From a virus, in IMG/VR virus record IMGVR_UViG_3300025141_016758, positions 1-44,892 of that record: a stretch of 44,892 nucleotides of DNA. The stretch is one strand, 5' to 3'. The translations under genes were made by a program, and so were the position numbers. Below, one piece after another: positions 3-40,494 of this stretch (position 1 is its first letter; each line of letters starts with the position of its first letter). Below the pieces are notes generated by a model. The model saw only the letters and a program-made list of their open reading frames with translations, had not been told where the DNA came from and ran no database searches.

Positions 3-98
3 GATATTGCATGGGAATGGGTGGTGCTCTTCGACGATGGTGATGTCGGAGGAGCTGATACAATCGACTTGAAGGTGATTAAAAATGAAAGTCGGTGA
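3..98 (+). CDS. KVGD-family small protein, 3' part only
   Basis: The left window edge cuts this gene; 31 residues are visible. It keeps the family's second half: a hydrophobic strand (WVVLFDDGDVGG) and the closing L-K-V-I-x-N-E-S-R. The KVGD family is defined here from this window: about 53-82 residues, start M-K-V-G-D-L-V, a central G-[IL]-[VI]-V strand, often an I-L-W-x-x-G turn, and an end L-E-V-I-N-E-S-R. The alternating hydrophobic pattern suggests an SH3/KOW/Tudor-like small beta barrel (inference). The last 14 nt (85-98) are also the first 14 nt of the next gene in another frame. Function unknown. Confidence 0.75.
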   Translation, partial: DIAWEWVVLFDDGDVGGADTIDLKVIKNESR

Positions 99-309
99 TA
101 TGGTTATTAGAAAAGTATTACATACCTTCGAGCTAAGTCGCCGTGCGGCGATGAACCAGCGTGAACTTTTAGGGCATGGAATTGTTCTTACAAAACAAAT
201 GGCCGGAAGCAATCCGGTTCATCCATGTGTTACCGTGTACTATCCAAAAGTTCAAAAAACATATGATATCGCAGAATCTCTTTTGGAGGTGATCAGTGAA
301 AATCGGTGA
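85..309 (+). CDS. KVGD-family small protein
   Basis: 74 residues. Starts M-K-V-G-D-M-V-I, has the family's central H-G-I-V-L-T strand and ends L-L-E-V-I-S-E-N-R. A longer basic insert (about residues 10-30, ELSRRAAMNQREL) separates the first two strands. The ATG lies inside the last codons of the upstream gene, and its Shine-Dalgarno (GAAGGTGAT) is that gene's Lys-Val-Ile codons. It overlaps the next gene by 14 nt. Recognised by similarity to its window neighbours; function unknown. Confidence 0.85.
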   Translation: MKVGDMVIRKVLHTFELSRRAAMNQRELLGHGIVLTKQMAGSNPVHPCVTVYYPKVQKTYDIAESLLEVISENR

Positions 310-472
310 TCTGGTCTGGGTGGATGGTGATCTCTACCCACGGCTTAAAAAAGAAGTAGGCATGCTTGTAGAACTGCGGATGCCGAGATCGTGGATTGTT
401 ATGATTGCTGGAAGGTTGCACCCATTTGTCATTTCACAGGAAGACATGGAATTAGCAAGTGCAAGCAGGTGA
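296..472 (+). CDS. KVGD-family small protein (GTG start)
   Basis: 58 residues beginning V-K-I-G-D-L-V-W-V-D and ending A-S-A-S-R. The core has V-G-M-L-V-E-L followed by W-I-V-M-I-A-G-R-L-H-P, a variant also seen in the gene at 5365 (H-I-M-I-A-G-T-L-H-P), so these two copies are close relatives across blocks. The GTG start is chosen because GGAGGT sits 6 nt upstream, inside the previous gene's Leu-Glu-Val codons, and because the 14-nt family overlap is kept. Confidence 0.85.
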   Translation: MKIGDLVWVDGDLYPRLKKEVGMLVELRMPRSWIVMIAGRLHPFVISQEDMELASASR

Positions 473-656
473 CATAGTAAGATTTAAAACCAAAGGCCAA
501 TCTTTCTTTTCTCGGTACGAGACTTGGAAGATTGGCCTTCTTGTGGAATATCATACGTGGGAGAAAATAGCGACCATTCTTTATGAAGGTTCTACACGCA
601 GGGTTCATGCAAGAGACGTTCAGCTTGTGCACAGGTCACCACAGCATGATGAATGA
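459..656 (+). CDS. KVGD-family small protein (GTG start)
   Basis: 65 residues, start V-Q-A-G-D-I-V-R-F, central I-G-L-L-V-E-Y strand and A-T-I-L-Y-E-G turn. The C-terminus departs from the family (ends H-R-S-P-Q-H-D-E instead of N-E-S-R) because the next gene is not a KVGD member and the shared junction is lost. It overlaps the upstream copy by 14 nt and the DUF2061 gene by about 11 nt. Function unknown. Confidence 0.8.
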   Translation: MQAGDIVRFKTKGQSFFSRYETWKIGLLVEYHTWEKIATILYEGSTRRVHARDVQLVHRSPQHDE

Positions 657-891
657 AAAAGCTCGTCTTAGTAAAAAAAGACATCTTTTAAAAACCATAA
701 CGTGGAGAATCGTTGGAACGACTGATACCGTTCTGATTGGGTGGCTCATAAGTGGAGATCCTGTTGTGGGCCTAAGTATTGGAGGGATAGAGGTTGTCAC
801 TAAAATGATTCTTTATTATTTACATGAAAGGCTTTGGTACAGGTCCAGCTTCGGGGTAGAAAAAGAACAAGCGAGTGAAAGCCTAAAATGA
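646..891 (+). CDS. DUF2061 family small membrane protein
   Basis: About 81 residues. The block K-K-R-H-L-L-K-T-I-T-W-R-I-V-G-T-T-D-T followed by G-G-I-E-V-V-T-K and Y-Y-L-H-E-R-L-W is the signature of DUF2061, a family of short predicted inner-membrane proteins in bacteria and phages. Two hydrophobic segments (roughly residues 25-45 and 50-65) fit membrane insertion. ATGs at 646 and 649 are both possible; upstream in-frame codons back to 583 lie deep inside the previous gene. The stop overlaps the next ATG by 4 nt. Molecular function is unknown. Confidence 0.8.
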   Translation: MMNEKARLSKKRHLLKTITWRIVGTTDTVLIGWLISGDPVVGLSIGGIEVVTKMILYYLHERLWYRSSFGVEKEQASESLK

Positions 892-1124
892 AAATCGGTG
901 ATTTAGTAAATTTTTATACGACGTCGTGGGTATTCCATCGAGCTGCTGAAGATTATAAAGGCCCAGGAATTATTATAGGAAAAACCCAAAGGTCATCACC
1001 TATTTCATCTGCAAAAAAAACTGTATTCAAAATTCTATGGGCAGACTTGAAAATTACAAATGAACATGAATGTTATCTAAAACTTGTTAGCACAACTAAT
1101 ACAAACTCAAAAAAAGTTCTATAA
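888..1124 (+). CDS. KVGD-family small protein
   Basis: 78 residues, start M-K-I-G-D-L-V-N-F, core G-P-G-I-I-I-G-K and F-K-I-L-W-A-D-L. The C-terminal strand ends L-K-L-V-S-T-T-N-T instead of the canonical V-I-N-E-S-R, as for other copies at the end of a block. ATGA overlap with the DUF2061 gene implies translational coupling. Last member of the first block. Confidence 0.8.
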   Translation: MKIGDLVNFYTTSWVFHRAAEDYKGPGIIIGKTQRSSPISSAKKTVFKILWADLKITNEHECYLKLVSTTNTNSKKVL

Positions 1125-2589: not shown

Positions 2590-4057
2590 TTTAGAAAATA
2601 ATGATTTAATTGCAAAGGCAGGTGAAGAGGGCCTCACTGTTATTGATGGGGTTGTTTATTTTTACACAGGGACCCGTACCGGTCGAAGCCCAAATGCCAA
2701 AAAAATAGTTAAAGACTCATTAACGAGCGAAAACATTGATTGGGAAAATAATAATTCAATTGAAGAAAAAGAATGGGAAAATTGTCTACAGAGGTTTGAT
2801 GCGCATCTTGCAAATTCAAAAACGCTATACCGTCAAGACGTTGTAGCTGTCCGAGATCCTTTTGTTAATTTGCACACAAGGGTTTATACTGAAACAGCTG
2901 TACATTCGCTTTTTGCAAGAAACATGTTTGTCCCATATTCTGACACAGGGCCTGATCCTAAATTCATACCTGATTGGAATGTGTATCATTTTCCATCCCT
3001 TTCAAAAGAACCGACGGTGATTATATCATTCACAGATAAGAAGGTTTTAATAAGTGGGACACAATATTCTGGCGAAATCAAGAAAAGTATCTTTACTGTT
3101 TTAAATTACACATTCGTAAAAGACACCGCTGGTCTTCCAATGCACTGTTCTGTGAACACTGATCTTGATAGAAAAAACCCAGTTATATTTTTTGGTCTTT
3201 CAGGTACGGGAAAAACAACACTAAGTTCGGACTCAAATCGCCTACTGATTGGTGATGATGAGCATGCATGGACAGATGATGGGCTGACTAATTTTGAAGG
3301 TGGTTGTTATGCAAAAACAATTAGATTATCATCTGATGATGAACCAGAAATTTGGGAAGCATGTCATACGGAAGGGACGATATTAGAAAATGTTGTTTTG
3401 ATTGATGGAATGCCTGATTTCGATAATTCGACATATACTGAAAACTGCAGGGCTTCATACCCACTGAGCTCAATTTCAAACGCTGATCCACATGGTTATA
3501 TTAGGGAGCATCCAAAAAATATTATTATGCTCACGTGTGATGCATTTGGTGTTCTGCCTCCAGTTTCAAAGTTGACAGCTGACGAGGCTGTCAAACAATT
3601 TGCTCTTGGTTACACTGCTAAAATTGCTGGCACTGAAGCAGGTGTGGTTGAACCCATCGCCACATTCTCGCCTTGTTTTGGTGGTCCGTTTATGCCACTC
3701 CCAGTTTTTGAATATACAAATATTCTCAGGGAAAAAATTAATGCTCATGATGTAGACTGCTGGCTTGTAAACACAGGATGGACTGGTGGGTCGTATGGTG
3801 TGGGAAGCAGAATCTCGATCAAGACCACACGAACAATTATAGATCGTATTCTTGACGGAAGCTTAAAAAACCAAGTAACAAAAAAACATGAGTATACCGG
3901 ACTCACCGTTCCTTTACATCCAGGTTTGGATAAAAATATTTTATTTCCTGAGAACAGCTGGACAGATTTGGCTGAATATAAGAGTAAAGTAAAAGAACTA
4001 ACTCAATTATTTGATGAAAAAAGTATAGAATTATTTGGAGAAGCTAATTGTGGGTGA
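2579..4057 (+). CDS. pckA: ATP-dependent phosphoenolpyruvate carboxykinase
   Basis: 492 residues, slightly shorter than the usual 520-540, but every landmark is present: T-G-R-T/S-P substrate loop near residue 27-33 (T-G-R-S-P), G-E-I-K-K before the metal site, M-H-C-S with the metal-binding His, P-loop G-L-S-G-T-G-K-T-T (about 206-214), G-D-D-E-H, G-G-C-Y-A-K-T, and C-D-A-F-G-V-L-P-P. The enzyme interconverts oxaloacetate + ATP and PEP + CO2 + ADP in the cytoplasm. ATG 2579 is chosen for AGAGGT 7 nt upstream; the in-frame codon at 2546 lies inside the previous gene. It overlaps the QueF-like gene by 8 nt. Apparently catalytically intact; rare in phages. Confidence 0.95.
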   Translation: MKVNLENNDLIAKAGEEGLTVIDGVVYFYTGTRTGRSPNAKKIVKDSLTSENIDWENNNSIEEKEWENCLQRFDAHLANSKTLYRQDVVAVRDPFVNLHTRVYTETAVHSLFARNMFVPYSDTGPDPKFIPDWNVYHFPSLSKEPTVIISFTDKKVLISGTQYSGEIKKSIFTVLNYTFVKDTAGLPMHCSVNTDLDRKNPVIFFGLSGTGKTTLSSDSNRLLIGDDEHAWTDDGLTNFEGGCYAKTIRLSSDDEPEIWEACHTEGTILENVVLIDGMPDFDNSTYTENCRASYPLSSISNADPHGYIREHPKNIIMLTCDAFGVLPPVSKLTADEAVKQFALGYTAKIAGTEAGVVEPIATFSPCFGGPFMPLPVFEYTNILREKINAHDVDCWLVNTGWTGGSYGVGSRISIKTTRTIIDRILDGSLKNQVTKKHEYTGLTVPLHPGLDKNILFPENSWTDLAEYKSKVKELTQLFDEKSIELFGEANCG

Positions 4058-4475
4058 AAGAAAAAAGAGAGATTGGAATAAAAATAGAAATATATTGAAG
4101 TCGATTGCAAACCCGAGCCGGGAATCATATGAGATTAAAATGAAAATTCCTGAATTGACATTTGAGGGCGTGCGTGGGCAACCTGATTTTGCAAAATTGT
4201 ATATTACTTTTTATCCTGATGATAAAGTAATTGAATTGAAATCTCTTAAGGAATATTTCTTCGCCTTCAGGTCTCAAATTTACTCATATGAAAGAATCGT
4301 AAATGTAATATACGATGATTTGCTTGCGGCTTATGAACCTTCCAGATTACGACTAGTGATGGTATGCAATCCGAGGGGTGGAATATCATCTAAGCTAACA
4401 GTAGATTCAGATTGGATCGTAAGAGGCGGTAAAGACACGTTTAAAGACTGGCTGGGGCAGAAGGATGAATGGTAA
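4050..4475 (+). CDS. QueF-like (preQ0 reductase superfamily) protein lacking the usual catalytic Cys
   Basis: 141 residues from GTG 4050 (GGAG 9 nt upstream, inside pckA). The tunnelling-fold signature is clear: Y-E-I-K-M-K-I-P-E, G-Q-P-D-F-A, V-I-E-L-K-S-L-K-E-Y, S-Y-E-R-I-V-N and P-R-G-G-I-S-S-K. These match the NADPH-dependent 7-cyano-7-deazaguanine reductase QueF, which makes preQ1 for queuosine or deazaguanine DNA modification. Where B. subtilis-type QueF has Cys before G-Q-P-D-F this protein reads F-E-G-V-R-G-Q-P-D-F, so the thioimide-forming Cys seems absent. The acid of the substrate-binding E and the E-L-K-S-L-K block remain. Activity is therefore uncertain; the fold assignment is secure. 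Confidence 0.8.
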   Translation: MGERKKRDWNKNRNILKSIANPSRESYEIKMKIPELTFEGVRGQPDFAKLYITFYPDDKVIELKSLKEYFFAFRSQIYSYERIVNVIYDDLLAAYEPSRLRLVMVCNPRGGISSKLTVDSDWIVRGGKDTFKDWLGQKDEW

Positions 4476-4756: not shown

Positions 4757-5163
4757 TGGAAAAAGGCACTAGGGTACTACTTTTACCTGATGCAACAGGC
4801 ACCAGGGAGTCTGGGACTATTCATGAAGAATATGAGCTACAGGAGTGGTATAAAATAAAAACTAAATTATATGGGTGGTCATATGAGAAATGTCTAGACT
4901 TCTGGTCCAGTAAAGGACCAGTGTTTAAAGTTAAAATTGATTTTCATCCTGTATTTGGTGAAAATTCAATAATTGAAAAATCCATGAGTCAGCTTGAGGT
5001 GATGTCACCAGAAGAAATAGAAAAGCGTAATGCATCATCTCGAGCAGACGACACAGAACAACCACCGGTGATCCATCCTTTCTCTCTTGAACAAGAAAGG
5101 CTATGCGAATTGCTTCTCGAGCACACCGCAGATACGAAAACCATCAAAAAAGGTGAAGGGTGA
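4756..5163 (+). CDS. Hypothetical protein, possible small-barrel N-terminus
   Basis: 135 residues. The first 80 (K-G-T-R-V-L-L-L-P, E-S-G-T-I-H, Q-L-E-V-M-S) follow the strand pattern of the KVGD barrels with a large insert around a W-Y-K-I-K / W-S-Y-E-K segment. Residues 85-135 are a polar, probably helical tail rich in Glu. It may be a long, diverged relative of the KVGD family (inference). It overlaps the following KVGD gene by 4 nt (GTGA). Confidence 0.6.
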   Translation: MEKGTRVLLLPDATGTRESGTIHEEYELQEWYKIKTKLYGWSYEKCLDFWSSKGPVFKVKIDFHPVFGENSIIEKSMSQLEVMSPEEIEKRNASSRADDTEQPPVIHPFSLEQERLCELLLEHTADTKTIKKGEG

Positions 5164-5378
5164 AAATTGGTGATTTAGTCTTATGGTCACCATGGAAAAA
5201 ACATCCATACCCCGGAGCGCTGAGCGCTATAAAATATTATGAGCGTATTCGAAAGAGATGCGGTGAAAAACCAGGTGTAATACTTTCAGTGCACGAAGAC
5301 AACTGTCAGGTTATATTCAACACCGATATCATAATAATACATAAAGATTTTTTAGAAGTGATTGATGCAAGTCGGTGA
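5160..5378 (+). CDS. KVGD-family small protein (GTG start)
   Basis: 72 residues, start V-K-I-G-D-L-V-L-W, core K-P-G-V-I-L-S-V and C-Q-V-I-F-N-T-D, end F-L-E-V-I-D-A-S-R. A basic insert Y-Y-E-R-I-R-K-R-C lies before the central strand. First gene of the second array; GTG chosen for AGGTGAAGG just upstream and the 4-nt overlap with the previous stop. Confidence 0.8.
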   Translation: MKIGDLVLWSPWKKHPYPGALSAIKYYERIRKRCGEKPGVILSVHEDNCQVIFNTDIIIIHKDFLEVIDASR

Positions 5379-5556
5379 TCTAGTGGTTATTAATAAGACA
5401 GCATTTCCAGAATATGACGGGAAGGTCGGCATTATCGTTGGCAAGTCTAATATTTTGCCGAATCGTTATCATATCATGATTGCCGGGACATTACATCCAA
5501 GTTATATTCACGGTAATGATTTGGAACCTATTAACAAAAATAATCAAAAAAGCTAG
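5365..5556 (+). CDS. KVGD-family small protein; end duplicated at 25300
   Basis: 63 residues starting M-Q-V-G-D-L-V-V-I, core V-G-I-I-V-G-K, then H-I-M-I-A-G-T-L-H-P as in the copy at 296. The ending P-I-N-K-N-N-Q-K-S is shared with the gene at 25129, because about 64 bp covering the 3' end and the following promoter are nearly identical at 5530-5593 and 25300-25363. A TTG at 5362 is also in frame; ATG 5365 fits the 14-nt junction. Confidence 0.82.
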   Translation: MQVGDLVVINKTAFPEYDGKVGIIVGKSNILPNRYHIMIAGTLHPSYIHGNDLEPINKNNQKS

Positions 5557-5563
5557 TCAAAAA

Positions 5564-5593
5564 TGTGAAAGCGGGTGTCCCATGTGGTATAAT
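5564..5593 (+). promoter_or_regulatory. TGTGAA-18-TATAAT promoter
   Basis: TGTGAA at 5564-5569, an 18-nt spacer, and extended -10 TGTGGTATAAT ending at 5593. It drives the KVGD genes from 5619. One of ten strong matches to a promoter class with invariant spacing in this window. Confidence 0.85.
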
Positions 5594-5618
5594 AATAAAG
5601 TATTAAGGGAGAAACATA

Positions 5619-5837
5619 TTGCATGTTGGTATAAAAGTAGGTGATTTAATTAAACGCAAGGTGGAAAATAGCTGGAACGTTTATGATATTTCCGAAAATG
5701 AAAAGCACGGCATTGGGTTAGTTGTCGATGTAAATATAAATACGGTATATCGTATTCTGATGGTGTATTACTCAAAGACCCAGACCTTTGGCACGCTGGC
5801 CACACGTTTTGCGGAGAAAATAAATGAAAGCCGGTGA
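5619..5837 (+). CDS. KVGD-family small protein (TTG start)
   Basis: 72 residues. The family motif is shifted by four residues (M-H-V-G-I-K-V-G-D-L-I-K). Core G-I-G-L-V-V-D-V, Y-R-I-L-M-V-Y-Y, end A-E-K-I-N-E-S-R. TTG 5619 has GGAG 7 nt upstream; an out-of-frame ATG at 5623 stops after three codons. First gene behind the promoter at 5564-5593. Overlaps the next copy by 14 nt. Confidence 0.78.
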   Translation: MHVGIKVGDLIKRKVENSWNVYDISENEKHGIGLVVDVNINTVYRILMVYYSKTQTFGTLATRFAEKINESR

Positions 5838-6033
5838 TATGGTAAAATTTCATGAAAGATTTCGTAAGAGTGAGGATCTATATCTAGTATGTGAACGACA
5901 TAAAACATGGGATTGGGAACGATTCGACTGTGGTTCACCATTTGCAGCATGGGTTATTGTCAATTGTGCTACAGGAAAGATTCATACACAAACAGCTCGA
6001 GACTTGGAGGTCATCAGTGAAACCATTAACTAA
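5824..6033 (+). CDS. KVGD-family small protein
   Basis: 69 residues, start M-K-A-G-D-M-V-K-F, a Trp-rich middle (K-T-W-D-W-E-R-F), then A-A-W-V-I-V-N-C-A-T-G-K strand-turn-strand, end D-L-E-V-I-S-E-T-I-N. It embeds the start of the 6017 gene in its last codons with GGAGGT as ribosome-binding site, so the junction now drives a non-family gene. Confidence 0.8.
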   Translation: MKAGDMVKFHERFRKSEDLYLVCERHKTWDWERFDCGSPFAAWVIVNCATGKIHTQTARDLEVISETIN

Positions 6034-6511
6034 AGAAATTAAAGAAGGGTTAAATCAACATTATCTTCACTGTCGCAATCTGCTTGATCAAGGATTTGGT
6101 GTTTTTTACACCACACGCATTTTTGAAAATATTTTTTATGACATGACTGTGTTTGAAAACAGCTGGAAAAGTACTCATATTTCCAAGGCGGCAATTAAAA
6201 AGCTTCTGTCAAACAAAGGTTCATCAATCTCTGGAGTCCAACGCTGTCATGGCTTAATTGACAACAGGTTGGATAGACTGGTGAGGACACGTACACTTCT
6301 TGAGGGTCCAGAGATGGCTTTTGAAGAGTGGTATGAATATTATCGTAAGCATGACTTAACAATTCTGCTAACAAAGAGTGAACATAAGTCTGAAACGTTT
6401 AGTAAGCTGTATGAAATTCCGGAAGAACGTGATCTATTCAGGGCATCAGGTTTTGGATTTAAAAAAAGAAAAAGTGTTGAATGTGTTTGGATGAAGGATG
6501 TGATTAAATGA
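6017..6511 (+). CDS. Hypothetical phage protein
   Basis: 164 residues from GTG 6017, placed by GGAGGTCATCA just upstream (within the previous gene) and 17-nt overlap. The in-frame codon at 5891 would lie entirely within that gene. Mostly helical by composition, with basic and aromatic residues, an N-terminal L-T-K-E-I-K-E-G-L helix and a C-terminal basic F-K-K-R-K. No family recognised. It replaces a KVGD copy in the array yet keeps the array's junction signal. Confidence 0.7.
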   Translation: MKPLTKEIKEGLNQHYLHCRNLLDQGFGVFYTTRIFENIFYDMTVFENSWKSTHISKAAIKKLLSNKGSSISGVQRCHGLIDNRLDRLVRTRTLLEGPEMAFEEWYEYYRKHDLTILLTKSEHKSETFSKLYEIPEERDLFRASGFGFKKRKSVECVWMKDVIK

Positions 6512-6606
6512 ACGAAGAAATAGCAACCGCAGCAGGTTCATTTTTCGGGGCCGTCATAGGCACGAGTATATTTTTTGTGTGGTTTTTTAACAGTGGGTGC
6601 CTGTAA
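6508..6606 (+). CDS. Single-pass membrane microprotein
   Basis: 32 residues: short acidic start (M-N-E-E-I-A-T-A-A-G) and one hydrophobic segment F-F-G-A-V-I-G-T-S-I-F-F-V-W-F-F. Starts within the previous stop (AAATGA) and its TAA shares one base with the next ATG, so it is embedded in a coupled chain. Function unknown. Confidence 0.6.
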   Translation: MNEEIATAAGSFFGAVIGTSIFFVWFFNSGCL

Positions 6607-6815
6607 TGAAAGTGGGTGATTACGTTGCAATGATTACTAATGAATGGCAAAAGCACAATCGCTGGATGGAATTTCCAGATGAGAAGCCTGAGCCATTGGG
6701 AATAATTGTCGAGAAAGGTAAGTGTGGAAAACAGTTTTGGAATGTTTTGCTTTCCTGTGGTACCGTGAAGGAGCTAAGCGAGAATTATCTAAAGGTGATT
6801 AGTGAAAGTCGGTGA
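6606..6815 (+). CDS. KVGD-family small protein
   Basis: 69 residues, start M-K-V-G-D-Y-V-A-M, core L-G-I-I-V-E-K, F-W-N-V-L-L-S-C-G-T-V, end L-K-V-I-S-E-S-R. ATG 6606 fits the family start; an in-frame GTG at 6597 would add three residues. A proline/acid-rich insert (F-P-D-E-K-P-E-P) precedes the central strand. Confidence 0.85.
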   Translation: MKVGDYVAMITNEWQKHNRWMEFPDEKPEPLGIIVEKGKCGKQFWNVLLSCGTVKELSENYLKVISESR

Positions 6816-6984
6816 TTTGGTAAAATTTACTGCTGGTCCGTTAGCGGTTGTGAATGCTGGTGTTGTTGTGAATGTTTGGACTATAGCTCATAAGAACAGA
6901 GTTCAGTCAGTTGATATTTTGTGGGAAGGTAAAATTATCCCAAGGCTGGTTAGCGCAATTGAGGTAATAAATGAAAGTCGGTGA
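6802..6984 (+). CDS. KVGD-family small protein (GTG start)
   Basis: 60 residues, a clean representative: V-K-V-G-D-L-V-K-F, A-G-V-V-V-N-V-W, S-V-D-I-L-W-E-G-K, end I-E-V-I-N-E-S-R. V-W-T-x(n)-R-V-Q-x-x-D-I-L-W is shared with the copy at 21607 in the third array, so sequence subtypes cross array boundaries. Confidence 0.88.
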   Translation: MKVGDLVKFTAGPLAVVNAGVVVNVWTIAHKNRVQSVDILWEGKIIPRLVSAIEVINESR

Positions 6985-7162
6985 TTGTGTCAGGGTAGAT
7001 TATGATAACGACGGAGGGTATATCGATGGTGCTCATTGGACAGGTATATGCACGTGGACTGACGGTTACAAGTTTGAGTTTCTTATTGACGGGTCTTTTG
7101 ATACTTGGACTAGTAGTGATCTCGAGACAGTTAGGGCGGAGGTAATCAATGAAAGTCGGTGA
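6971..7162 (+). CDS. KVGD-family small protein
   Basis: 63 residues, start M-K-V-G-D-C-V-R-V, core W-T-G-I-C-T-W-T-D-G, F-E-F-L-I-D-G-S-F, end A-E-V-I-N-E-S-R. The first loop is acidic and glycine-rich (Y-D-N-D-G-G-Y). Standard 14-nt overlaps at both ends. Confidence 0.85.
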   Translation: MKVGDCVRVDYDNDGGYIDGAHWTGICTWTDGYKFEFLIDGSFDTWTSSDLETVRAEVINESR

Positions 7163-7337
7163 TATGATTAAAATGGCAACATCCTACCGAAATGACCTGA
7201 ACCGTCTTGGACTGCTAGTTAGAATCGGTAGACGACACAATAACCGACGCGTTGGCACGGTCTTGACAGCCGCCGGTATCGAAACGTGGCCACTAGATTC
7301 TCATTACGAATACGAGGTGATCAATGAAAGTCGGTGA
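7149..7337 (+). CDS. KVGD-family small protein
   Basis: 62 residues, start M-K-V-G-D-M-I-K-M, core L-G-L-L-V-R-I-G-R-R, end Y-E-Y-E-V-I-N-E-S-R. Unusually basic for the family (R-R-H-N-N-R-R in the turn), which would allow nucleic-acid contact (inference). Standard 14-nt overlaps. Confidence 0.85.
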   Translation: MKVGDMIKMATSYRNDLNRLGLLVRIGRRHNNRRVGTVLTAAGIETWPLDSHYEYEVINESR

Positions 7338-7485
7338 TTTAGTGGTACATAAAGGAACAGGTAAGACTTACTTGATTGTTGAAGACGGTGGCGCTGCGCA
7401 GGAATTGGTTGGAGTTGTCCGCGATAATGGGACACTGGGCTTCATGGCCAGGAGCTGGTTGGAGGTTATCAATGCAAGTCGGTGA
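7324..7485 (+). CDS. KVGD-family small protein
   Basis: 53 residues, among the shortest: M-K-V-G-D-L-V-V-H-K, L-I-V-E-D-G-G, L-V-G-V-V-R-D-N-G, end W-L-E-V-I-N-A-S-R. The next gene starts M-Q rather than M-K; the same base change in the shared junction turns E-S-R into A-S-R here, showing how the overlap links the two proteins. Confidence 0.85.
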   Translation: MKVGDLVVHKGTGKTYLIVEDGGAAQELVGVVRDNGTLGFMARSWLEVINASR

Positions 7486-7690
7486 TTTAGTAATGTTTAT
7501 TGACGAAGGCACATACGCTAAGTGGTTTTATGGACAGATGGGAGTGGTTAAGCATTACACCCCAGTTGGCAGTGACGGAAAAGCTCATTGTCGAGTGTCA
7601 TGGTTGAATCCCGTAAAGTATTTTCATAGATATACGTCGGTTTCTAATTTTAGTGCTGACAAATTCGAGGTGTTAGATGAAAAATTATAG
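7472..7690 (+). CDS. KVGD-family small protein
   Basis: 72 residues from ATG 7472: M-Q-V-G-D-L-V-M-F, core M-G-V-V-K-H-Y, C-R-V-S-W-L-N-P, end F-E-V-L-D-E-K-L. An in-frame upstream start at 7376 lies inside the previous gene and is discarded. The 14-nt overlap persists with a non-family gene (7677), although the shared bases no longer encode V-G-D. Confidence 0.83.
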   Translation: MQVGDLVMFIDEGTYAKWFYGQMGVVKHYTPVGSDGKAHCRVSWLNPVKYFHRYTSVSNFSADKFEVLDEKL

Positions 7691-8015
7691 ATTTGCATAT
7701 TTTAAATCCGGCTTTGGAGTGAGTGTTCAGGCAAGTAGTAGAAACTACAGCGAACCAAGAAATGATTCCGGGCCGTACACATCTGTTGAGCTTGGCTTTC
7801 CTTCTGCTCCGGAGCCTCTGATTATTGGATTTGCCGAGGACCCAGATAAACCAACGGACACGGTTTATGGCTATGTTCCAGCGGGGGTTGTGCACGCTTT
7901 AGCCATCAAGCACGGAGGGCTTGAAGAAGGAGAACTTCCGCCGCTTGATATTAATGCAGAACAGGCTGCAATTTTTGCTGAAGCTTTGATGGTAGTTGAT
8001 GATGAAGCCAGGTGA
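7677..8015 (+). CDS. Hypothetical protein
   Basis: 112 residues, no family recognised. The first half is beta-like (F-A-Y-F-K-S-G-F-G-V-S-V-Q-A); the middle is Pro/Gly-rich; the end is a helix (A-E-Q-A-A-I-F-A-E-A-L). It begins 14 nt before the stop of the previous KVGD gene and itself overlaps the next by 14 nt, so it was inserted into, or diverged within, the array without breaking coupling. Confidence 0.7.
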   Translation: MKNYRFAYFKSGFGVSVQASSRNYSEPRNDSGPYTSVELGFPSAPEPLIIGFAEDPDKPTDTVYGYVPAGVVHALAIKHGGLEEGELPPLDINAEQAAIFAEALMVVDDEAR

Positions 8016-8250
8016 CCTGGTCGAATTCTCAGGGAAGTATTATTACCTTGACAGTGGTGACCGCTGGATGTGGGTAATCAATTCCTTGACAAAAATGGGA
8101 ATAATCAGCGAGATTAATCCCCCGAAAGAGATTTTCATATTGTGTGACGCCAAACAATATCTGGTCACAAAAGATGATGTTGATGAGGGCATTACGGTAA
8201 TTGTAGTTATTAACGATGCAGAACTTATACATGCTACACCACTTGAATAA
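8002..8250 (+). CDS. KVGD-family small protein
   Basis: 82 residues from ATG 8002: M-K-P-G-D-L-V-E-F, core M-G-I-I-S-E-I, I-F-I-L-C-D-A-K, ending in a longer hydrophobic tail (I-T-V-I-V-V-I-N-D-A-E-L-I). ATG 7999 and TTG 7996 are also in frame; 8002 gives the 14-nt junction (ATGAAGCCAGGTGA). Last member of the second array. Confidence 0.78.
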   Translation: MKPGDLVEFSGKYYYLDSGDRWMWVINSLTKMGIISEINPPKEIFILCDAKQYLVTKDDVDEGITVIVVINDAELIHATPLE

Positions 8251-11050: not shown

Positions 11051-12130
11051 ATGGACATTCGGACTCTCAAGACTATCGCTTCTAATCTCCCTCCCCACAT
11101 TGCAGTTCTGATGCAAGGGCCGACGGGTGTTGGTAAGTCGTTTGCCGCCAAGGCAATTGCTAAGGAGCTTGGTCTTCCATACATTGACGTTCGTGGTTCT
11201 ACTATGGATGAGTCTGACATGGGTATTCCGGACCTTGAGAAATCTAAGGAAGCTGGTGCTTACACCAAGATGCTTCCTTCTTGGTACGTTCGGGCCTGTC
11301 GCGAACCAGTTGTCCTGATGCTTGATGAGCTCAACCGCTCTCTGCCACAGGTTATGCAGGGGTTCTTCCAGGTTGTTCTTGACCGCGAGCTTGGTAACGG
11401 TCCTGACGGTGTTGCATATCGCTTGCACCCAGAAACTCGGGTGATTGCCGCAGTTAACGTTGGTAACGAATATGACGTCAATGAAATGGATCCTGCGCTA
11501 CTGCGTCGTTTCTGGGTTACTGAGATTGAGCCTACCGTGACCAACTGGGTTGAGTGGGCCAAGGAAGTTGGTTTGGATTCTGTCCTTGTCGAGTTCGTCC
11601 AACAGAACCCTGAGCACTGGCGGGTTGATCCTTCCAGCGCTGAGCCTGGTGCGGTCCTGCCGACACCGGCATCTTGGCACCGGTTGAATGACAGTTTGGT
11701 TCACATGGACCTTGCTCCTGTTAAGGTTGCTGGTTCTAACCCTGACCTTCTCTACCCAACCTCCCGCGGGTTCGTTGGTACTGAAGCGGGTATTGCTTTC
11801 ACTGAGTTCATCAAGAATTACGAACGAAACATCAGTGCTGAGGATGTGCTGAGTGGTAAGGTCAAGGCGGCCGATGTTGAAGAGGTTGAAGCCTCTGTCA
11901 AGCTTAACCTCCTTGATAAGCTGGTTGACCACGCTAAGGAAAACAAGCTTTCTGCCAAGGAGTGTAAGGCACTCGCTGCGTTCACCAAGGAGCTCGGTGG
12001 TGAGTTTCTGTTCAATACCTGGACCAAGCTGAGTGCTTGCGGTAACATGGAGAACATCCGCGCGATGCACAAGCTGATTGGTAAGGATGTTGTCAAGGCA
12101 GTCCAGGCTGCACGGTCGCTGAGCAAGTGA
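11051..12130 (+). CDS. MoxR-type AAA+ ATPase
   Basis: 359 residues. Walker A G-P-T-G-V-G-K-S at residues 23-30, Walker B V-V-L-M-L-D-E-L-N at 87-95, sensor-1 region V-I-A-A-V-N-V-G-N, and A-L-L-R-R-F-W arginine-finger segment, all in the order of MoxR/AAA_5 ATPases. These ATPases remodel or load metal into partners, usually a von Willebrand factor A protein encoded next door; that partner is at 12754. The remaining third is helical and probably forms the lid. Own promoter at 10963. Highly AAG/GGT-biased codons suggest strong expression. Confidence 0.88.
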   Translation: MDIRTLKTIASNLPPHIAVLMQGPTGVGKSFAAKAIAKELGLPYIDVRGSTMDESDMGIPDLEKSKEAGAYTKMLPSWYVRACREPVVLMLDELNRSLPQVMQGFFQVVLDRELGNGPDGVAYRLHPETRVIAAVNVGNEYDVNEMDPALLRRFWVTEIEPTVTNWVEWAKEVGLDSVLVEFVQQNPEHWRVDPSSAEPGAVLPTPASWHRLNDSLVHMDLAPVKVAGSNPDLLYPTSRGFVGTEAGIAFTEFIKNYERNISAEDVLSGKVKAADVEEVEASVKLNLLDKLVDHAKENKLSAKECKALAAFTKELGGEFLFNTWTKLSACGNMENIRAMHKLIGKDVVKAVQAARSLSK

Positions 12131-12154
12131 CGCGGAAAATATCCGGTAGCGGTT

Positions 12155-12179
12155 CGAGCTGGTCCTTGTGGCCAGCTCG
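12155..12179 (+). terminator. Hairpin after the MoxR gene
   Basis: Perfect 8-bp stem CGAGCTGG (12155-12162) / CCAGCTCG (12172-12179) with a 9-nt loop, 25 nt after the stop. No T-tract follows, so it may be a transcript-stabilising hairpin rather than an intrinsic terminator. Confidence 0.4.
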
Positions 12180-12286
12180 CCCCATAAAAGCTGTTGACTT
12201 CAAAGGGAAGGTTGAACCTATATTTAGAGTGACTGACAAAGAAGATGAACACCGCGGGCCGCCCGATTATAATAATAAAGGCAGGC

Positions 12287-12604
12287 ATGAAAATGTATGT
12301 AAGAGAACTAAGGCCTGGAATGTTAATCCGCCCGATGGGGAGATGGGAGTGGTCAGTGTTCAAACTCCATCAGGAAGCTGGGAACGGCTGGATGGAACTA
12401 TCAGGCCAGGGAGTAGGCTTTCACTCTTCTGTTAGATACACATCTAATAATAAAATGAACCGCCGGCAAGACACTGCAGTTTATCTTGGAAAGAAAGTAT
12501 TGAAAGAAGATTATTATGGGTTAAAGACACATCACCTCATTCTGGTTAGCGGAGTAGTCGCAGCAATGGATGGTTATTCTTTTAAAGATGTTGAAAGAAT
12601 TTAA
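12287..12604 (+). CDS. Hypothetical protein, paralogue of the 19322 gene
   Basis: 105 residues from ATG 12287 (M-K-M-Y-V-R-E-L-R-P-G-M-L). The opening V-R-E-L-R-P-G-M-L-I-R-P, the middle A-V-Y-L-G-K-K and the end V-V-A-A-M-D-G-Y-S-F match the layout of the gene at 19322 (V-K-D-L-E-I-G-M-L-L-Q-P; I-M-Y-I-G-T-K; I-S-A-V-D-P), so the two are diverged paralogues. Upstream in-frame ATG 12245 is possible but its Shine-Dalgarno is weaker. Function unknown. It sits between the MoxR and VWA genes. Confidence 0.65.
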   Translation: MKMYVRELRPGMLIRPMGRWEWSVFKLHQEAGNGWMELSGQGVGFHSSVRYTSNNKMNRRQDTAVYLGKKVLKEDYYGLKTHHLILVSGVVAAMDGYSFKDVERI

Positions 12605-12612
12605 ACGTTTTT

Positions 12613-12642
12613 TGTGAAAGTGGCTGCCAGATATGGTATAAT
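12613..12642 (+). promoter_or_regulatory. TGTGAA-18-TATAAT promoter
   Basis: TGTGAA 12613-12618, 18-nt spacer, TATAAT 12637-12642. From the spacer end through the leader (GATATGGTATAATATATATG and on to GGAAGGTA) it is identical to the promoter at 10963, so the MoxR and VWA genes have matched promoters. The leader to 12754 is about 105 nt. Confidence 0.88.
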
Positions 12643-12753
12643 ATATATGAAGGTGGAGGAAGGTAAGGAACACTGTTCGCGTTGGTAAGTCAACCGTCTG
12701 GAATCAAAAGATTAGGTTCCCCCTCTCAAACAATTTTTATTCAGGAGTTAAAT

Positions 12754-14118
12754 ATGGCAGTTAAAGGACACGGCACGGCAACGGAAATCGCACCCGATAC
12801 CTCCAAAGCAGGAGGGAATCTCCTTTATGACTTGGTAGATGAATTCGATATTGACCCGCACATTATTGCGCTGATGTTCAATGAGCCTTTCTATGCCAAG
12901 GTGTTGCGCGGGATTACTAAGACATGCACCAAAGCCATCCCAACCGCAGGTGTTCTCTGTAAAGATGGCGATCTTAAGATGTGGTACAACCCAGGGTTCT
13001 TGGCTAGTCTTAAAGACATCCAGGTTCGAGGATTGCTCAAGCACGAGGCAATGCACCTCGCCTTGATGCACACAACAACACGTCGACTTGAGCCTCACAA
13101 CGTACACAACTACGCAGCTGATTTGGCTATTAACTCTACCATTCCAGAAGATGAGTTGCCTGATGGTGGTCTCATTCCCGGTAAGGCATTCGAAGCGCTG
13201 ACTGACGAACAGAAAGAAAAGATGTCTGAAGATGCACAGGCTCGATACGATCGGATGAGTCAATTTGTGGCTGAACTTCCTAAGGGTCTTTCTACTGAGG
13301 AGTACTTCTCCCGGCTGTTGGAAGATGATCAGATGAAAGAGGATATGAATTCCCAAGAAAAAGGAAAGGGTCAACCTGGTGAGTTGGGTGAAGGCGAAGG
13401 CAGTCCTGGTGGAATGGATGACCATGATGGTTGGGATACTCTCTCGGAAGAAGAGAAGGAACTCGCTGCAGCGAAGGTTAAGCAGGCAGTTACCCAGGCA
13501 GCTAAAGAGTGTGATCAAAAGGGACAGTGGGGATCGGTACCAGCAGCTGTTCAGTCTGAAATCCGTCGGTTGATTTCTAATGAGATTCCTTGGCAGTCAG
13601 TCCTTAAGAAGTTTGTTGGATTTACCAAGCGGTCTGTGCGGTCTACATCTTGGAATAAGATTAATAAGAAGAACCCAATGATTATGCCTGGAAGCCGCAA
13701 GCGGACAACGGCGTCTATTGCACTTTACATTGACCAGTCTGGGTCTGTTAGCAATGGCGAACTTGAACTACTCTTTGGAGAACTTCAGTCCTTGACAAAG
13801 CATACAGAGTTCACCACCTTTCACTTTGATAGTGAGGTAGATGAAGACTCCGAAACCGTTTGGAAGAAGGGTCGGTACACTGCTCCTCACCGGACTCGAT
13901 GTGGAGGTACCTGTTTCAGGTCTGTTCAAAAGCACGCACATAAGAACCGGCACCGATTTGACGGTTACCTTGTCCTCACTGATGGCTGGGCTTCTGACCC
14001 GGGACATTCTCGGATGAAGCGTGGCTGGGTTATTACCACCAACGGTGATGTCCAGGATTGGATGGGCGGTAAGGATTTCGTTATCAAGATGAAGACGCCG
14101 ATTGAAGCGGCGGCATAA
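12754..14118 (+). CDS. Putative metallopeptidase / VWA-domain protein (DUF2201-like), MoxR partner
   Basis: 454 residues from ATG 12754 (AGGAG upstream; an in-frame GTG at 12682 is discarded). The N-terminal domain has H-E-A-M-H at 97-101, a zinc-metallopeptidase HExxH motif, matching the DUF2201 N-terminal family. A low-complexity linker (E-K-G-K-G-Q-P-G-E-L-G-E-G-E) follows. The C-terminal VWA-like domain has the metal-site D-Q-S-G-S-V near residue 327, and later T-D-G-W-A. Such proteins pair with MoxR ATPases, here the 11051 gene with a near-identical promoter. A chaperone/metal-loading or proteolytic complex is inferred; substrate unknown. Confidence 0.85.
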   Translation: MAVKGHGTATEIAPDTSKAGGNLLYDLVDEFDIDPHIIALMFNEPFYAKVLRGITKTCTKAIPTAGVLCKDGDLKMWYNPGFLASLKDIQVRGLLKHEAMHLALMHTTTRRLEPHNVHNYAADLAINSTIPEDELPDGGLIPGKAFEALTDEQKEKMSEDAQARYDRMSQFVAELPKGLSTEEYFSRLLEDDQMKEDMNSQEKGKGQPGELGEGEGSPGGMDDHDGWDTLSEEEKELAAAKVKQAVTQAAKECDQKGQWGSVPAAVQSEIRRLISNEIPWQSVLKKFVGFTKRSVRSTSWNKINKKNPMIMPGSRKRTTASIALYIDQSGSVSNGELELLFGELQSLTKHTEFTTFHFDSEVDEDSETVWKKGRYTAPHRTRCGGTCFRSVQKHAHKNRHRFDGYLVLTDGWASDPGHSRMKRGWVITTNGDVQDWMGGKDFVIKMKTPIEAAA

Positions 14119-20075: not shown

Positions 20076-20339
20076 ATGAACATCACTATTGGCAACCGCG
20101 TTCGATCTTTTGACTTTCCCTACATGCGTGATCTTGTCGGTAATCGCTCCTGTTACATGGAGGGTGTAGTCACCGGAATCGAAAAGATTCGAGGATGTGA
20201 TCGCTACGTAATCGAAGTTACACGCTGTGTTTCAGGCGGCAAAGAGCATAGTGATCATCCATCGGTCATTATCCCACCCGTTAACGGAACCCCCACGACC
20301 ATGGGCCGGGTCACTGACGGAGTCGAGGTGATTGCGTAA
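20076..20339 (+). CDS. Hypothetical protein, possible small barrel
   Basis: 87 residues directly behind a strong promoter, AAGGAG 6 nt before ATG. N-I-T-I-G-N-R-V-R-S-F at the start, G-V-V-T-G-I-E in the middle and V-T-D-G-V-E-V-I-A at the end give the strand order of the KVGD proteins with a different opening motif. C-rich codons suggest high expression. Heads the run of KVGD copies that follows, with one-base stop/start overlap. Confidence 0.68.
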   Translation: MNITIGNRVRSFDFPYMRDLVGNRSCYMEGVVTGIEKIRGCDRYVIEVTRCVSGGKEHSDHPSVIIPPVNGTPTTMGRVTDGVEVIA

Positions 20340-20530
20340 TGAAGGTCGGTGATTTGATCAAGCACAAATACGGCACGATGATTGGTTATGGCATCATTGT
20401 TGAGAAGCCGTGTGTAACACGAACACATGCTTTAGGACATGACCCCGATCGAATGCGAATCGTGTGGAATTGTCAAGGTCATGTCACAGAGTACAGTTTG
20501 ACTGGAGAATTTTTTGAGGTTGTAGCATGA
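20339..20530 (+). CDS. KVGD-family small protein
   Basis: 63 residues, start M-K-V-G-D-L-I-K-H-K-Y-G-T-M, core Y-G-I-I-V-E-K, M-R-I-V-W-N-C-Q-G, end F-F-E-V-V-A. The opening L-I-K-H-K-Y-G-T-M recurs in the copy at 20922 (L-V-K-H-Q-Y-G-T-M), so these are close duplicates. Ends without N-E-S-R; ATGA overlap with the next copy. Confidence 0.85.
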   Translation: MKVGDLIKHKYGTMIGYGIIVEKPCVTRTHALGHDPDRMRIVWNCQGHVTEYSLTGEFFEVVA

Positions 20531-20688
20531 AAGTCGGTGACTTAGTAAAAGTAAAGACGAAGTTTTATGGTGAACAAATCGGTTTGGTCATCAAGCATGG
20601 AATGGATGGATATTTTATCCAGCCGGTTGAACATCCGCGGATGATCATTGCTGGTGAGGAAGATTGCGAGGTTATTAATAGCTTATGA
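20527..20688 (+). CDS. KVGD-family small protein
   Basis: 53 residues: M-K-V-G-D-L-V-K-V-K, I-G-L-V-I-K-H-G, Y-F-I-Q-P-V, end C-E-V-I-N-S-L. The terminal S-L instead of E-S-R reflects a non-family downstream gene with a 4-nt overlap (ATGA). Confidence 0.83.
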   Translation: MKVGDLVKVKTKFYGEQIGLVIKHGMDGYFIQPVEHPRMIIAGEEDCEVINSL

Positions 20689-20918
20689 AGAATCCAAGTT
20701 TTAAAGATGAGTCAGAGGGCCGAGTTTTTCACTACGCATTCAACTGGATCGGTGGTGGATATAACGATGTGTGGGCAAAAAACAAGTATGATGCCATAGT
20801 GTTGGCTAATGCATGGTTCGGCACCGGGTCCGCCGGGTTGGTTGTCAACGAAGACACAGTTAAAGATATCACTGATAATGAAGAAGAATATCACAAAAGT
20901 TTACCATTGTGGGATTGA
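20685..20918 (+). CDS. Hypothetical protein
   Basis: 77 residues, not a KVGD member. H-Y-A-F-N-W-I-G-G-G-Y-N-D-V-W-A-K-N-K-Y-D-A-I is a strand-turn-helix pattern; acidic C-terminus (D-N-E-E-E-Y-H-K). No family recognised. It interrupts the third array; the next KVGD gene starts 3 nt after the stop. Confidence 0.65.
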   Translation: MKNPSFKDESEGRVFHYAFNWIGGGYNDVWAKNKYDAIVLANAWFGTGSAGLVVNEDTVKDITDNEEEYHKSLPLWD

Positions 20919-20921
20919 TCA

Positions 20922-21098
20922 GTGAAAATCGGTGACTTGGTGAAACATCAGTACGGCACCATGCAAGGCACCGGTGTTATACTCAGCATTCGGCCATTTG
21001 ACGGCAAGCAAGCGCGTATACTGTGGACTGCTCATGGTCAAACCAAGATACAAGAAGTAGCAACTCGCTATCTGGAGGTAATAAATGAAAGTCGGTGA
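20922..21098 (+). CDS. KVGD-family small protein (GTG start)
   Basis: 58 residues, a textbook copy: V-K-I-G-D-L-V-K-H-Q, T-G-V-I-L-S-I, A-R-I-L-W-T-A-H-G, Y-L-E-V-I-N-E-S-R. Close to the 20339 gene over its first 15 residues. Its tail carries GGAGGT for the next start. Confidence 0.87.
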   Translation: MKIGDLVKHQYGTMQGTGVILSIRPFDGKQARILWTAHGQTKIQEVATRYLEVINESR

Positions 21099-21249
21099 TA
21101 TTGTAAGGTTTCTAGACATCGAGGGAAGGATTGGTACTCTTGTCGCATACGGAGAGTTTTCCGAGGGTTGGTGGGATATTCTAAACTGTGATGGAAAAAT
21201 GGTAGTCTGGCCAGAGACTCAAATTGAGGTGATCAATGAAAATCGGTGA
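21085..21249 (+). CDS. KVGD-family small protein
   Basis: 54 residues: M-K-V-G-D-I-V-R-F, I-G-T-L-V-A-Y-G, W-W-D-I-L-N-C-D-G-K, I-E-V-I-N-E-N-R. Standard 14-nt overlaps on both sides; E-N-R here corresponds to M-K-I in the next gene, since one base difference is read in both frames. Confidence 0.87.
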   Translation: MKVGDIVRFLDIEGRIGTLVAYGEFSEGWWDILNCDGKMVVWPETQIEVINENR

Positions 21250-21397
21250 TTTAGTGAAGCTGAAAGATGGAACTACAGGAATAATCATGGAGATTGTTAC
21301 TGATAATCCCATGGCACGTCGTCATCCATGGGCAATCCTACACTGTGGCGAGAAGTTTTCACTTCGTGACTTGGAGGTTATTAATGAAAGTCGGTGA
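21236..21397 (+). CDS. KVGD-family small protein
   Basis: 53 residues: M-K-I-G-D-L-V-K-L-K, T-G-I-I-M-E-I-V, W-A-I-L-H-C-G-E-K, L-E-V-I-N-E-S-R. Standard junctions. Compact copy without inserts, useful as a minimal form of the fold. Confidence 0.87.
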   Translation: MKIGDLVKLKDGTTGIIMEIVTDNPMARRHPWAILHCGEKFSLRDLEVINESR

Positions 21398-21620
21398 TTT
21401 GGTTAAAGTAAAAGAATGTGAACAGCTATATGATGTTACTCATCCGTTTCATGAATCATGTGAGTGCTTCTTCTGTAGTGGTAACTCTAACCGAGTCGGC
21501 ATGGTCCTTGGGCCGGCACCAGGAAATAGTTGGACAGTGATGTTCGACTGCGGCGAAAGGTGCTTTGATGATTTTGAAGAGGCTCGCGGAGAAGTGAAGG
21601 TGATCAATGAAAGTCGGTGA
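21384..21620 (+). CDS. KVGD-family protein with Cys-rich insert
   Basis: 78 residues: M-K-V-G-D-L-V-K-V-K, then an insert with C-E-C-F-F-C (about residues 27-32), core V-G-M-V-L-G-P, W-T-V-M-F-D-C-G-E-R-C, end V-K-V-I-N-E-S-R. Five to six cysteines could bind zinc, unlike other copies (inference). In-frame upstream starts lie in the previous gene. Confidence 0.85.
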   Translation: MKVGDLVKVKECEQLYDVTHPFHESCECFFCSGNSNRVGMVLGPAPGNSWTVMFDCGERCFDDFEEARGEVKVINESR

Positions 21621-21807
21621 TCTAATCAAGTTCAAAGGATCATGGTCAGACCCACGCGATCAACGCGACATGGGGCTCGTTATGCAGGTCTGGACCAATG
21701 GTTGGTCAGGTAGGGTTCAGGGTGCAGATATTCTCTGGGATAATGGAGATCTTAGTAAGCAATTTGGTGTATGGCACTTGGAGGTATTAAATGAAACCCG
21801 GGGATAG
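21607..21807 (+). CDS. KVGD-family small protein, shifted ending
   Basis: 66 residues: M-K-V-G-D-L-I-K-F, M-G-L-V-M-Q-V-W-T-N, Q-G-A-D-I-L-W-D-N-G, end H-L-E-V-L-N-E-T-R-G. The next gene has C-C-G-G-G-G-A in the junction instead of GGTGA, removing the usual TGA; reading runs on to TAG and the overlap grows to 17 nt. Subtype shared with the 6802 copy. Confidence 0.86.
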   Translation: MKVGDLIKFKGSWSDPRDQRDMGLVMQVWTNGWSGRVQGADILWDNGDLSKQFGVWHLEVLNETRG

Positions 21808-21970
21808 AGTCAAAATAAAGAAATCATGGGATTCAAAAGCTGATGATTTTCAAACTGGAACAATCAAGGATTTTGATGATGAGACAGTAGCCATCATTAT
21901 TGACGGTATTGGGGGACATTTTGTATTTTCAAAAGATGTTGTCTTGGAGATCGTTGATGCATGTCGGTGA
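21791..21970 (+). CDS. KVGD-family small protein
   Basis: 59 residues: M-K-P-G-D-R-V-K-I-K-K, T-G-T-I-K-D-F, V-A-I-I-I-D-G-I-G, L-E-I-V-D-A-C-R. The most diverged opening of the third array (P-G-D-R). The Shine-Dalgarno is GGAGGT in the previous gene; its own tail (TTGGAGATCG) serves the next. Confidence 0.84.
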   Translation: MKPGDRVKIKKSWDSKADDFQTGTIKDFDDETVAIIIDGIGGHFVFSKDVVLEIVDACR

Positions 21971-22139
21971 CTATGTAATAAAAGCCAAAGGTAGGAATCT
22001 TGGTGCTAAGGGTATTGTTACAAATATCATTACTAATGATGCGGAAAATACAATTATTGAAGTTTTGGTTGGAGATGAAATTCAGCTGTGGGCAAAACAA
22101 CTTGTGAAAATTTTTAAAACGGAGAAAATAAATGAGTGA
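21957..22139 (+). CDS. KVGD-family small protein
   Basis: 60 residues from ATG 21957: M-H-V-G-D-Y-V-I-K-A, K-G-I-V-T-N-I-I, I-E-V-L-V-G-D-E, end F-K-T-E-K-I-N-E. The in-frame start at 21900 is inside the previous gene. Last copy of the third array, overlapping the 22132 gene by 8 nt. Confidence 0.83.
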   Translation: MHVGDYVIKAKGRNLGAKGIVTNIITNDAENTIIEVLVGDEIQLWAKQLVKIFKTEKINE

Positions 22140-38300: not shown

Positions 38301-38309
38301 GAGCATGCA

Positions 38310-40248: not shown

Positions 40249-40494
40249 GTGAAATATTCAGAAGTCTGCTTATTGGCAGGTACTTGGTTACTAGTGTCAC
40301 AGAATCAATTTGGTTGGGGGCTTATTGGGCTTTCTATGATTTTGGCTTTTGCTAGATTTTCAATTGAAGTTAATGAAAAGAAAGAAGCACAAGAAAAAAT
40401 TTCAGAAGGTGCACAAAATTTAATTGATACTATAATTGGCATTGCTGGGGCAGGTACAAAAAATGACAAGTCCGGAAACACCTTTACACACTAG
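40249..40494 (+). CDS. Small membrane protein (GTG start)
   Basis: 81 residues from GTG 40249 (GGGAG 5 nt upstream). Two hydrophobic segments (V-C-L-L-A-G-T-W-L-L-V and G-L-I-G-L-S-M-I-L-A-F-A) then a charged helix (E-K-K-E-A-Q-E-K) and I-D-T-I-I-G-I-A-G-A-G. No family recognised. Overlaps the GroEL-like gene by 32 nt. Confidence 0.62.
   Translation: MKYSEVCLLAGTWLLVSQNQFGWGLIGLSMILAFARFSIEVNEKKEAQEKISEGAQNLIDTIIGIAGAGTKNDKSGNTFTH

Follow-up and report, generated by a model that had tools for sequence, protein, structure and literature searches.

The 44,892-base virus record IMGVR_UViG_3300025141_016758 (IMG/VR; the whole stretch is hereafter called the window) carries three clusters of small + strand genes, at about 85-1124, 5160-8250 and 20339-22139, in which consecutive genes are joined by a repeated 14-nucleotide (nt) unit that holds the end of one coding sequence and the start of the next. 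These genes are single-gene cassettes that are gained, lost and replaced among related phages, with crossovers located at the unit, and very probably they are shuffled by homology at this overlap, which would also couple their translation. Each cassette would encode an SH3/KOW-like barrel of ~60 amino acids (aa), and the arrays would be held together by the ~14-nt unit. The unit would start the next gene, whose product begins MKVGD and runs into the first strand of the barrel, would stop the upstream gene in either of the other frames, and would have its Shine-Dalgarno sequence supplied by the codons with which the preceding gene encodes its last beta strand. As the sole DNA stretch common to unrelated cassettes, it would be the place where homologous or annealing recombination crosses over, and selection would retain the in-register products.

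The original prediction, made from the sequence of the window, listed 16 sites at which 14 nt are shared by two genes, and the overlap was found at all 16. The TGA of the upstream frame occupies +12 to +14 of the downstream start codon and is that of GG-TGA within the downstream MxxGD start. The literal 14-mer is less uniform than had been claimed: RTGAAAGTCGGTGA has no mismatch at 8 of the 16 sites (85, 6802, 6971, 7149, 7324, 21085, 21384 and 21607), has one mismatch at 296, 5365, 5824, 7472 and 21236, and is more diverged at 459, 8002 and 21957. The prediction had overlooked a ninth exact copy (20527), where the upstream gene stops at ATGA (4-nt overlap). Likewise, the upstream tail N-E-S-R is present at some sites, with SESR, SENR, NENR, DASR, NASR, SASR, DEAR or DACR elsewhere, and the ribosome site GGAGGTNAT, said to be formed by the L-E-V-I codons, stands literally before 5 sites only, the others having weaker GAGGT, AAGGT or GGAGA types. 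The genes of the three clusters are as follows.

85..309, + strand, cassette gene of 74 aa; start in the 14-nt unit, whose upstream gene extends beyond the window
296..472, + strand, cassette of 58 aa; unit at 296-309
459..656, + strand, cassette of 65 aa; diverged unit at 459-472, GTGCAAGCAGGTGA
888..1124, + strand, cassette of 78 aa; junction of the 4-nt (ATGA) type
5160..5378, + strand, cassette of 72 aa; start of the 4-nt type, end in the unit at 5365-5378
5365..5556, + strand, cassette of 63 aa
5824..6033, + strand, cassette of 69 aa; the unit at 5824-5837 is the end of the open reading frame (ORF) 5619-5837
6606..6815, + strand, cassette of 69 aa; tail VISESR in the unit at 6802-6815
6802..6984, + strand, cassette of 60 aa; body 89% identical in locus L071 at 7154
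6971..7162, + strand, cassette of 63 aa; five-stranded barrel predicted (predicted local distance difference test score, pLDDT, 81.4)
7149..7337, + strand, cassette of 62 aa
7324..7485, + strand, cassette of 53 aa
7472..7690, + strand, cassette of 72 aa; unit at 7472-7485
8002..8250, + strand, cassette-like gene of 82 aa; the diverged unit ends an unrelated upstream gene (7677-8015)
20339..20530, + strand, cassette of 63 aa; unit with one mismatch, without the 14-nt overlap
20527..20688, + strand, cassette of 53 aa; exact 14-mer, 4-nt overlap at ATGA
20922..21098, + strand, cassette of 58 aa
21085..21249, + strand, cassette of 54 aa
21236..21397, + strand, cassette of 53 aa; body 95% identical in locus L032, SH3-like barrel predicted by AlphaFold2 (pLDDT 91.6)
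21384..21620, + strand, cassette of 78 aa
21607..21807, + strand, cassette of 66 aa
21791..21970, + strand, cassette of 59 aa; variant unit with a 17-nt overlap (MKPGD, GGGGAT)
21957..22139, + strand, cassette of 60 aa that closes the third cluster; diverged unit, ATGCATGTCGGTGA

With at most one mismatch allowed, the window contains 18 matches to the unit, every one on the + strand, against 0.04 expected from dinucleotide shuffles; none of 100 such shuffles reached 18. Among 1400 distinct genes with an MxVGD start in related loci, 929 have the 14-nt overlap and 205 have the 4-nt overlap at ATGA. The junction consensus, start codon included, is GGAGGTNATCARTGAAAGTCGGTGAT, and the core RTGAAAGTCGGTGA is often identical over 20 nt together with the TYTGGT directly after it. 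In a profile of 457 junctions, the Shine-Dalgarno core GAGGT lies at -10 to -6, GTG makes up 40% of the starts, and conservation extends to about +20. The unit contains TGA in both non-zero frames (ATGA and GGTGA), so that whichever of these two frames the preceding gene uses, it terminates in the unit and overlaps the next gene by 4 or 14 nt. Among exact units, the upstream frame that stays open longest is +2 in 522 cases, +1 in 64 and in frame in 10. Units of the 14-nt type lie wholly within two ORFs, with no intergenic space.

Read in the upstream frame, the junction gives L-E-V-I-(N/S)-E-S-R-stop. A functional protein tail was ruled out for NESR, as other kinds of upstream genes that end in the unit bear the same tail; it is a mere out-of-frame reading of the start of the next gene. 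The L-E-V-I codons are TTG GAG GTN ATN, and the Glu codon is under strong synonymous selection for the Shine-Dalgarno sequence: GAG was used in 693 of 709 tails (98%) vs 1713 of 3918 Glu codons in cassette bodies (44%; p about 1e-193). In addition, the stretch from -12 to +1 is linked to the upstream cassette. Both results bear out the proposal that the ribosome site of a cassette lies in the one before it. The overlap geometry, taken together with the codon selection, suggests that translation of the downstream cassette is coupled by termination-reinitiation.

AlphaFold models of two window cassettes (those at 21236 and 6971) are five-stranded SH3-like barrels, in both of which the E-V-I segment forms the last strand, and the codons of this strand therefore double as the ribosome site. 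Foldseek matched Tudor/KOW/NusG-type barrels only (best E 5e-3), and a profile search gave a weak match to SPT5/NusG KOW domains (E about 1e-4 to 3e-3). Almost no match was obtained for the cassettes in Pfam and PHROGs, and the Pfam KOW model matched none of 59 cassette members. On the basis of the two models, the cassettes are predicted to encode SH3/KOW-like barrels of ~60 aa. They share a weak profile match and a fold match with the KOW, Tudor and SH3-like barrels of NusG, SPT5 and uL24, but differ from these in being free-standing proteins.

The bodies of the cassettes are unrelated. Window bodies averaged 24% identity vs 22% for shuffled sequence, and related bodies were found in only 2 of 772 adjacent cassette pairs. 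Recent tandem duplication of whole genes, which the original prediction had said would leave bodies as similar as the junctions, was ruled out by these shuffled-level bodies beside identical junctions. Such duplication could account for the start, the end and probably the fold common to all cassettes, and a few within-locus duplicates do exist (7 pairs at ≥60% in 1400 genes), but near-identical copies were found in other phages and not next door; the chance that it made the junctions alike is negligible.

Cassettes also change their neighbors. For cassettes with ≥90% body identity in different loci (n = 86), the neighbor was unrelated in 68 cases and related in 18, whereas for ordinary genes on the same contigs at the same identity (n = 206) it was unrelated in 18 and related in 188 (Fisher p 1e-32, the pairs being not fully independent). 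Counted per family, with modest numbers, the right neighbor was different in 28 and the same in 7, and the left neighbor was different in 20, mixed in 2 and the same in 7. The window cassette at 6802-6984 has an 89% identical counterpart in a 293-kb phage (L071), and that at 21236-21397 has a 95% identical counterpart in a 236-kb phage (L032), each with both neighbors unrelated. The lack of cassette turnover that the original prediction had named as evidence against itself was thus not found. Two alternative neighbors, each in at least two loci, were seen in none of the families, and most arrangements occur once only.

Phage pairs other than relatives of the window were used to locate the exchanges. 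Window-centered synteny was rejected for this purpose; loci found via DnaK or a 398-aa protein at 1393 share at most 4 window genes and are mostly cassette-free. Loci L012 and L014 are 99.5-100% identical over 11 kb save one 176-nt cassette. The switch lies inside 20 identical nt, ATGAAAGTCGGTGATTTGGT; there the upstream gene, ribosome site included, runs into the following cassette with a perfect overlap. Cassette insertion or loss by recombination at the junction, as had been proposed, was supported by eight filled/empty pairs with crossovers at the unit, which also provided the breakpoints that were to be sought there. Counted from the first base of the start codon (0), the crossover intervals were -3 to 4, -12 to -11, 1 to 17, -4 to 5, 6 to 14, 15 to 17, 4 to 17 and 0 to 20. 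Several of these intervals are mutually exclusive, which is evidence against a single fixed cut site. Further, pairs sharing only the upstream cassette retained above-background identity to about +9 and lost it by +18, while in pairs sharing only the downstream cassette it set in between +4 and +16; linkage thus passes from the upstream cassette to the downstream one within the stretch from about +1 to +18.

Near cassettes, alignments ended at -12 to +30 in 137 of 165 and 123 of 189 cases, whereas the counts for ordinary gene starts were 20 of 70 and 41 of 93; as alignment is extended through the shared unit, these ends indicate a region and not a base. Overlap length and register were kept in 127 of 129 exchanges. 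These data bear on the view that random illegitimate recombination occurs anywhere and that only joins at gene borders survive selection. Breaks at gene borders are indeed favored generally in these phages, as the counts for ordinary starts indicate, but the concentration at cassettes is far above them (137/165), and exchanges hold the exact register even though joins of 4 nt, 14 nt and other kinds exist, which makes this view unlikely. It could also be argued that the motif has no role in recombination and is a compact coupling and start signal kept by protein (MKVGD, LEVI) and ribosome-site constraint, consistent with the strong codon-level Shine-Dalgarno selection and with the use of both strands by the fold. 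However, the Val codon is GTC in 55% of 4-nt junctions vs 21% in bodies, so that the unit stays alike even where the upstream frame does not read it, and actual exchanges map to it. We regard this explanation as very unlikely.

Integrons are arrays of promoterless single-gene cassettes with precise gain and loss via attC/IntI, and the present arrays resemble them in the precise gain and loss of single-gene cassettes. A site-specific system, in which an integrase or resolvase takes the unit as an att site, would match the short conserved site and the one-directional array. Against it, neither a tyrosine recombinase (PF00589, the IntI type; 0/22) nor a serine recombinase (0/22) was found in 22 large contigs, although the contigs may be incomplete and absence is no proof. 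In addition, the crossover position varies among events instead of falling at one base, the unit lies within coding sequence, and, unlike in integrons, each cassette supplies a ribosome site to its successor. Site-specific recombination is therefore improbable. RecA/UvsX was found in 22 of 22 genomes; together with crossovers spread over the unit and the lack of a detected recombinase, this favors homology-driven recombination or annealing. The RecA/UvsX pathway of the phage itself, or strand annealing or template switching, would thus probably be responsible.

Several points weigh against homology-driven shuffling. Exact identity between units within arrays has a median run of 13 nt and a 90th percentile of 20 nt, and identity this short is below the usual requirement of RecA-type recombination, so that low-homology annealing, template switching or rare selected events must contribute. 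Some contigs recur among the filled/empty pairs (L048 three times, L017 and L100 twice), and the eight do not represent as many independent phage pairs; later point mutation can also blur the crossover intervals. Moreover, all loci are metagenomic contigs. This last point, like the single occurrence of most arrangements, would also suit an artifact in which short-read assemblers fused unlike cassettes across copies of the unit. Assembly normally uses k-mers of at least 21, and exact repeats within arrays do not exceed 20 nt for about 90% of pairs (20 nt in L012/L014); being shorter than the usual k-mer, they disfavor chimeras. The neighbors of ordinary genes on the same contigs are also conserved, and such an artifact appears highly improbable.

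IMG/VR scans for GAGGTNATN-A/G-TGAAAGTCGGTGA yielded 64 and at least 120 stretches, some contigs occurring in both, and many of the unit-bearing contigs were 100-293 kb long. The unit was present in 23 of 24 tested contigs at 5 to 27 copies each (≤1 mismatch), clustered and nearly all on one strand, compared with 0-1 copies of a reversed-pattern control. Of 23 records tested, 20 encode a T4-type (gp23-type) capsid, the exceptions being the window fragment and two more, and the closest isolate capsids, of Flavobacterium immuto, Microcystis Mel-JY01 and Rhodothermus RM378, were at most about 50% identical. The carriers appear to be large phages, mostly T4-related. They are presumably marine, judging by the sample numbers. 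Cultured-phage records gave no match to the two cassettes searched or to the 36-nt unit consensus; five 19-nt unit matches in such records lay within capsid or portal genes and were dismissed as looking like chance. A scan of genome contigs gave 7 short matches only, probably phage contigs binned with bacteria. In related loci, non-cassette genes within arrays were also seen whose end lies in the 14-nt unit that opens the following cassette (for example, on the minus strand of L139 near 542), one of them resembling a GIY-YIG nuclease by eye.

Other genes of the window include an ATP-type phosphoenolpyruvate carboxykinase (2618-4057; E 1e-161) with an adjoining QueF-like gene (4035-4475), located between cassette clusters, and an AAA ATPase followed by a DUF2201 metallopeptidase/VWA-like protein (11051-14118), forming a MoxR-VWA-type pair. 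Full-length DnaK/Hsp70 is encoded at 23254-25122, and its relatives occur in Lak phages and in uncultured phages of 484-735 kb. Adjoining genes for DUF444 (YeaH-like), SpoVR and PrkA kinase (35836-40238; Pfam E 1e-113 to 1e-136) represent a host stress trio in a phage. A GroEL-like PHROG match (40436-41743) and a phage-encoded transfer-messenger RNA with the tag ANNNNHFDSVRLAA (43450-43789; ARAGORN; Rfam RF00023, 108 bits) were also identified.

Promoter-early stem-loops (PeSLs), reportedly described by Arbiol 2010 and Comeau 2014, resemble the present unit as a short repeat between small genes of T4-type phages (T4-type capsid in 20/23 here). They are repeated regulatory elements that separate small accessory genes and through which related phages are said to exchange genes as modules (PMC4503421). 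As described there, a PeSL is an intergenic promoter plus stem-loop, whereas the present repeat lies inside two coding sequences as a stop/start overlap with a ribosome site, and the cassettes share one fold; an intergenic early promoter with a stem-loop terminator is not what the 14-nt unit represents. The SAS/ESAS repeats of cluster K mycobacteriophages have a Shine-Dalgarno core, stand in nearly always one orientation before many non-structural genes of different families, and in some cases contain the stop of the upstream gene (PMC3203893, in the sections cited here). The cassette unit is likewise a conserved repeat, almost always in one orientation, with a Shine-Dalgarno core before genes of different families. 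However, SAS is a 13-bp sequence, GGGATAGGAGCCC, 3-7 bp upstream of starts, which the cassette junctions do not carry and whose place differs from that of a unit including the start codon; those sections describe no protein-coding overlap unit and no mapped exchange (PMC3203893). Short conserved boundary sequences, at which homologous recombination reassorts modules, have been proposed for phage mosaicism (PMC3029335), and recombination traces were reported at the edges of about 30% of mosaics (PMC3945230). The cassette arrays agree with such shuffling, with a repeat at the borders of otherwise unrelated genes and exchange breakpoints in the repeat, and differ in that it is visible at hundreds of borders with crossovers mapped to the unit. 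Shuffling at conserved border sequences is, as a principle, already known or proposed. As far as the literature searched shows, what is new is a border unit that lies in both coding sequences, stops both other frames, borrows the ribosome site of the previous gene and links cassettes of a single fold.

Whether phage mosaics arise from homologous recombination at short borders or from random joining and selection has long been disputed (PMC3029335; PMC3945230), and the arrays offer a natural system with hundreds of visible borders for mapping crossovers. The border itself explains why the products are functional, as both possible upstream frames terminate in it, the following gene begins in it and its ribosome site is supplied by the gene before, and it suggests a design for stackable, order-independent gene arrays. 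The cassettes constitute a large, nearly unannotated family of small phage proteins with intense turnover, as is typical of genes in an arms race, and the arrays may serve as a reservoir of interchangeable small binding proteins of accessory function, probably aimed at host factors. More tentatively, at somewhat less than even confidence, the overlap may be a dedicated exchange site, a frame-blind stop/start at which cassettes are plugged in and out with expression kept, the unit being conserved partly for recombination and not only for translation. The phages would then draw on a shared, very diverse pool of small SH3-like proteins, perhaps a rapidly renewed supply of counter-defence proteins or of inhibitors directed at the host.
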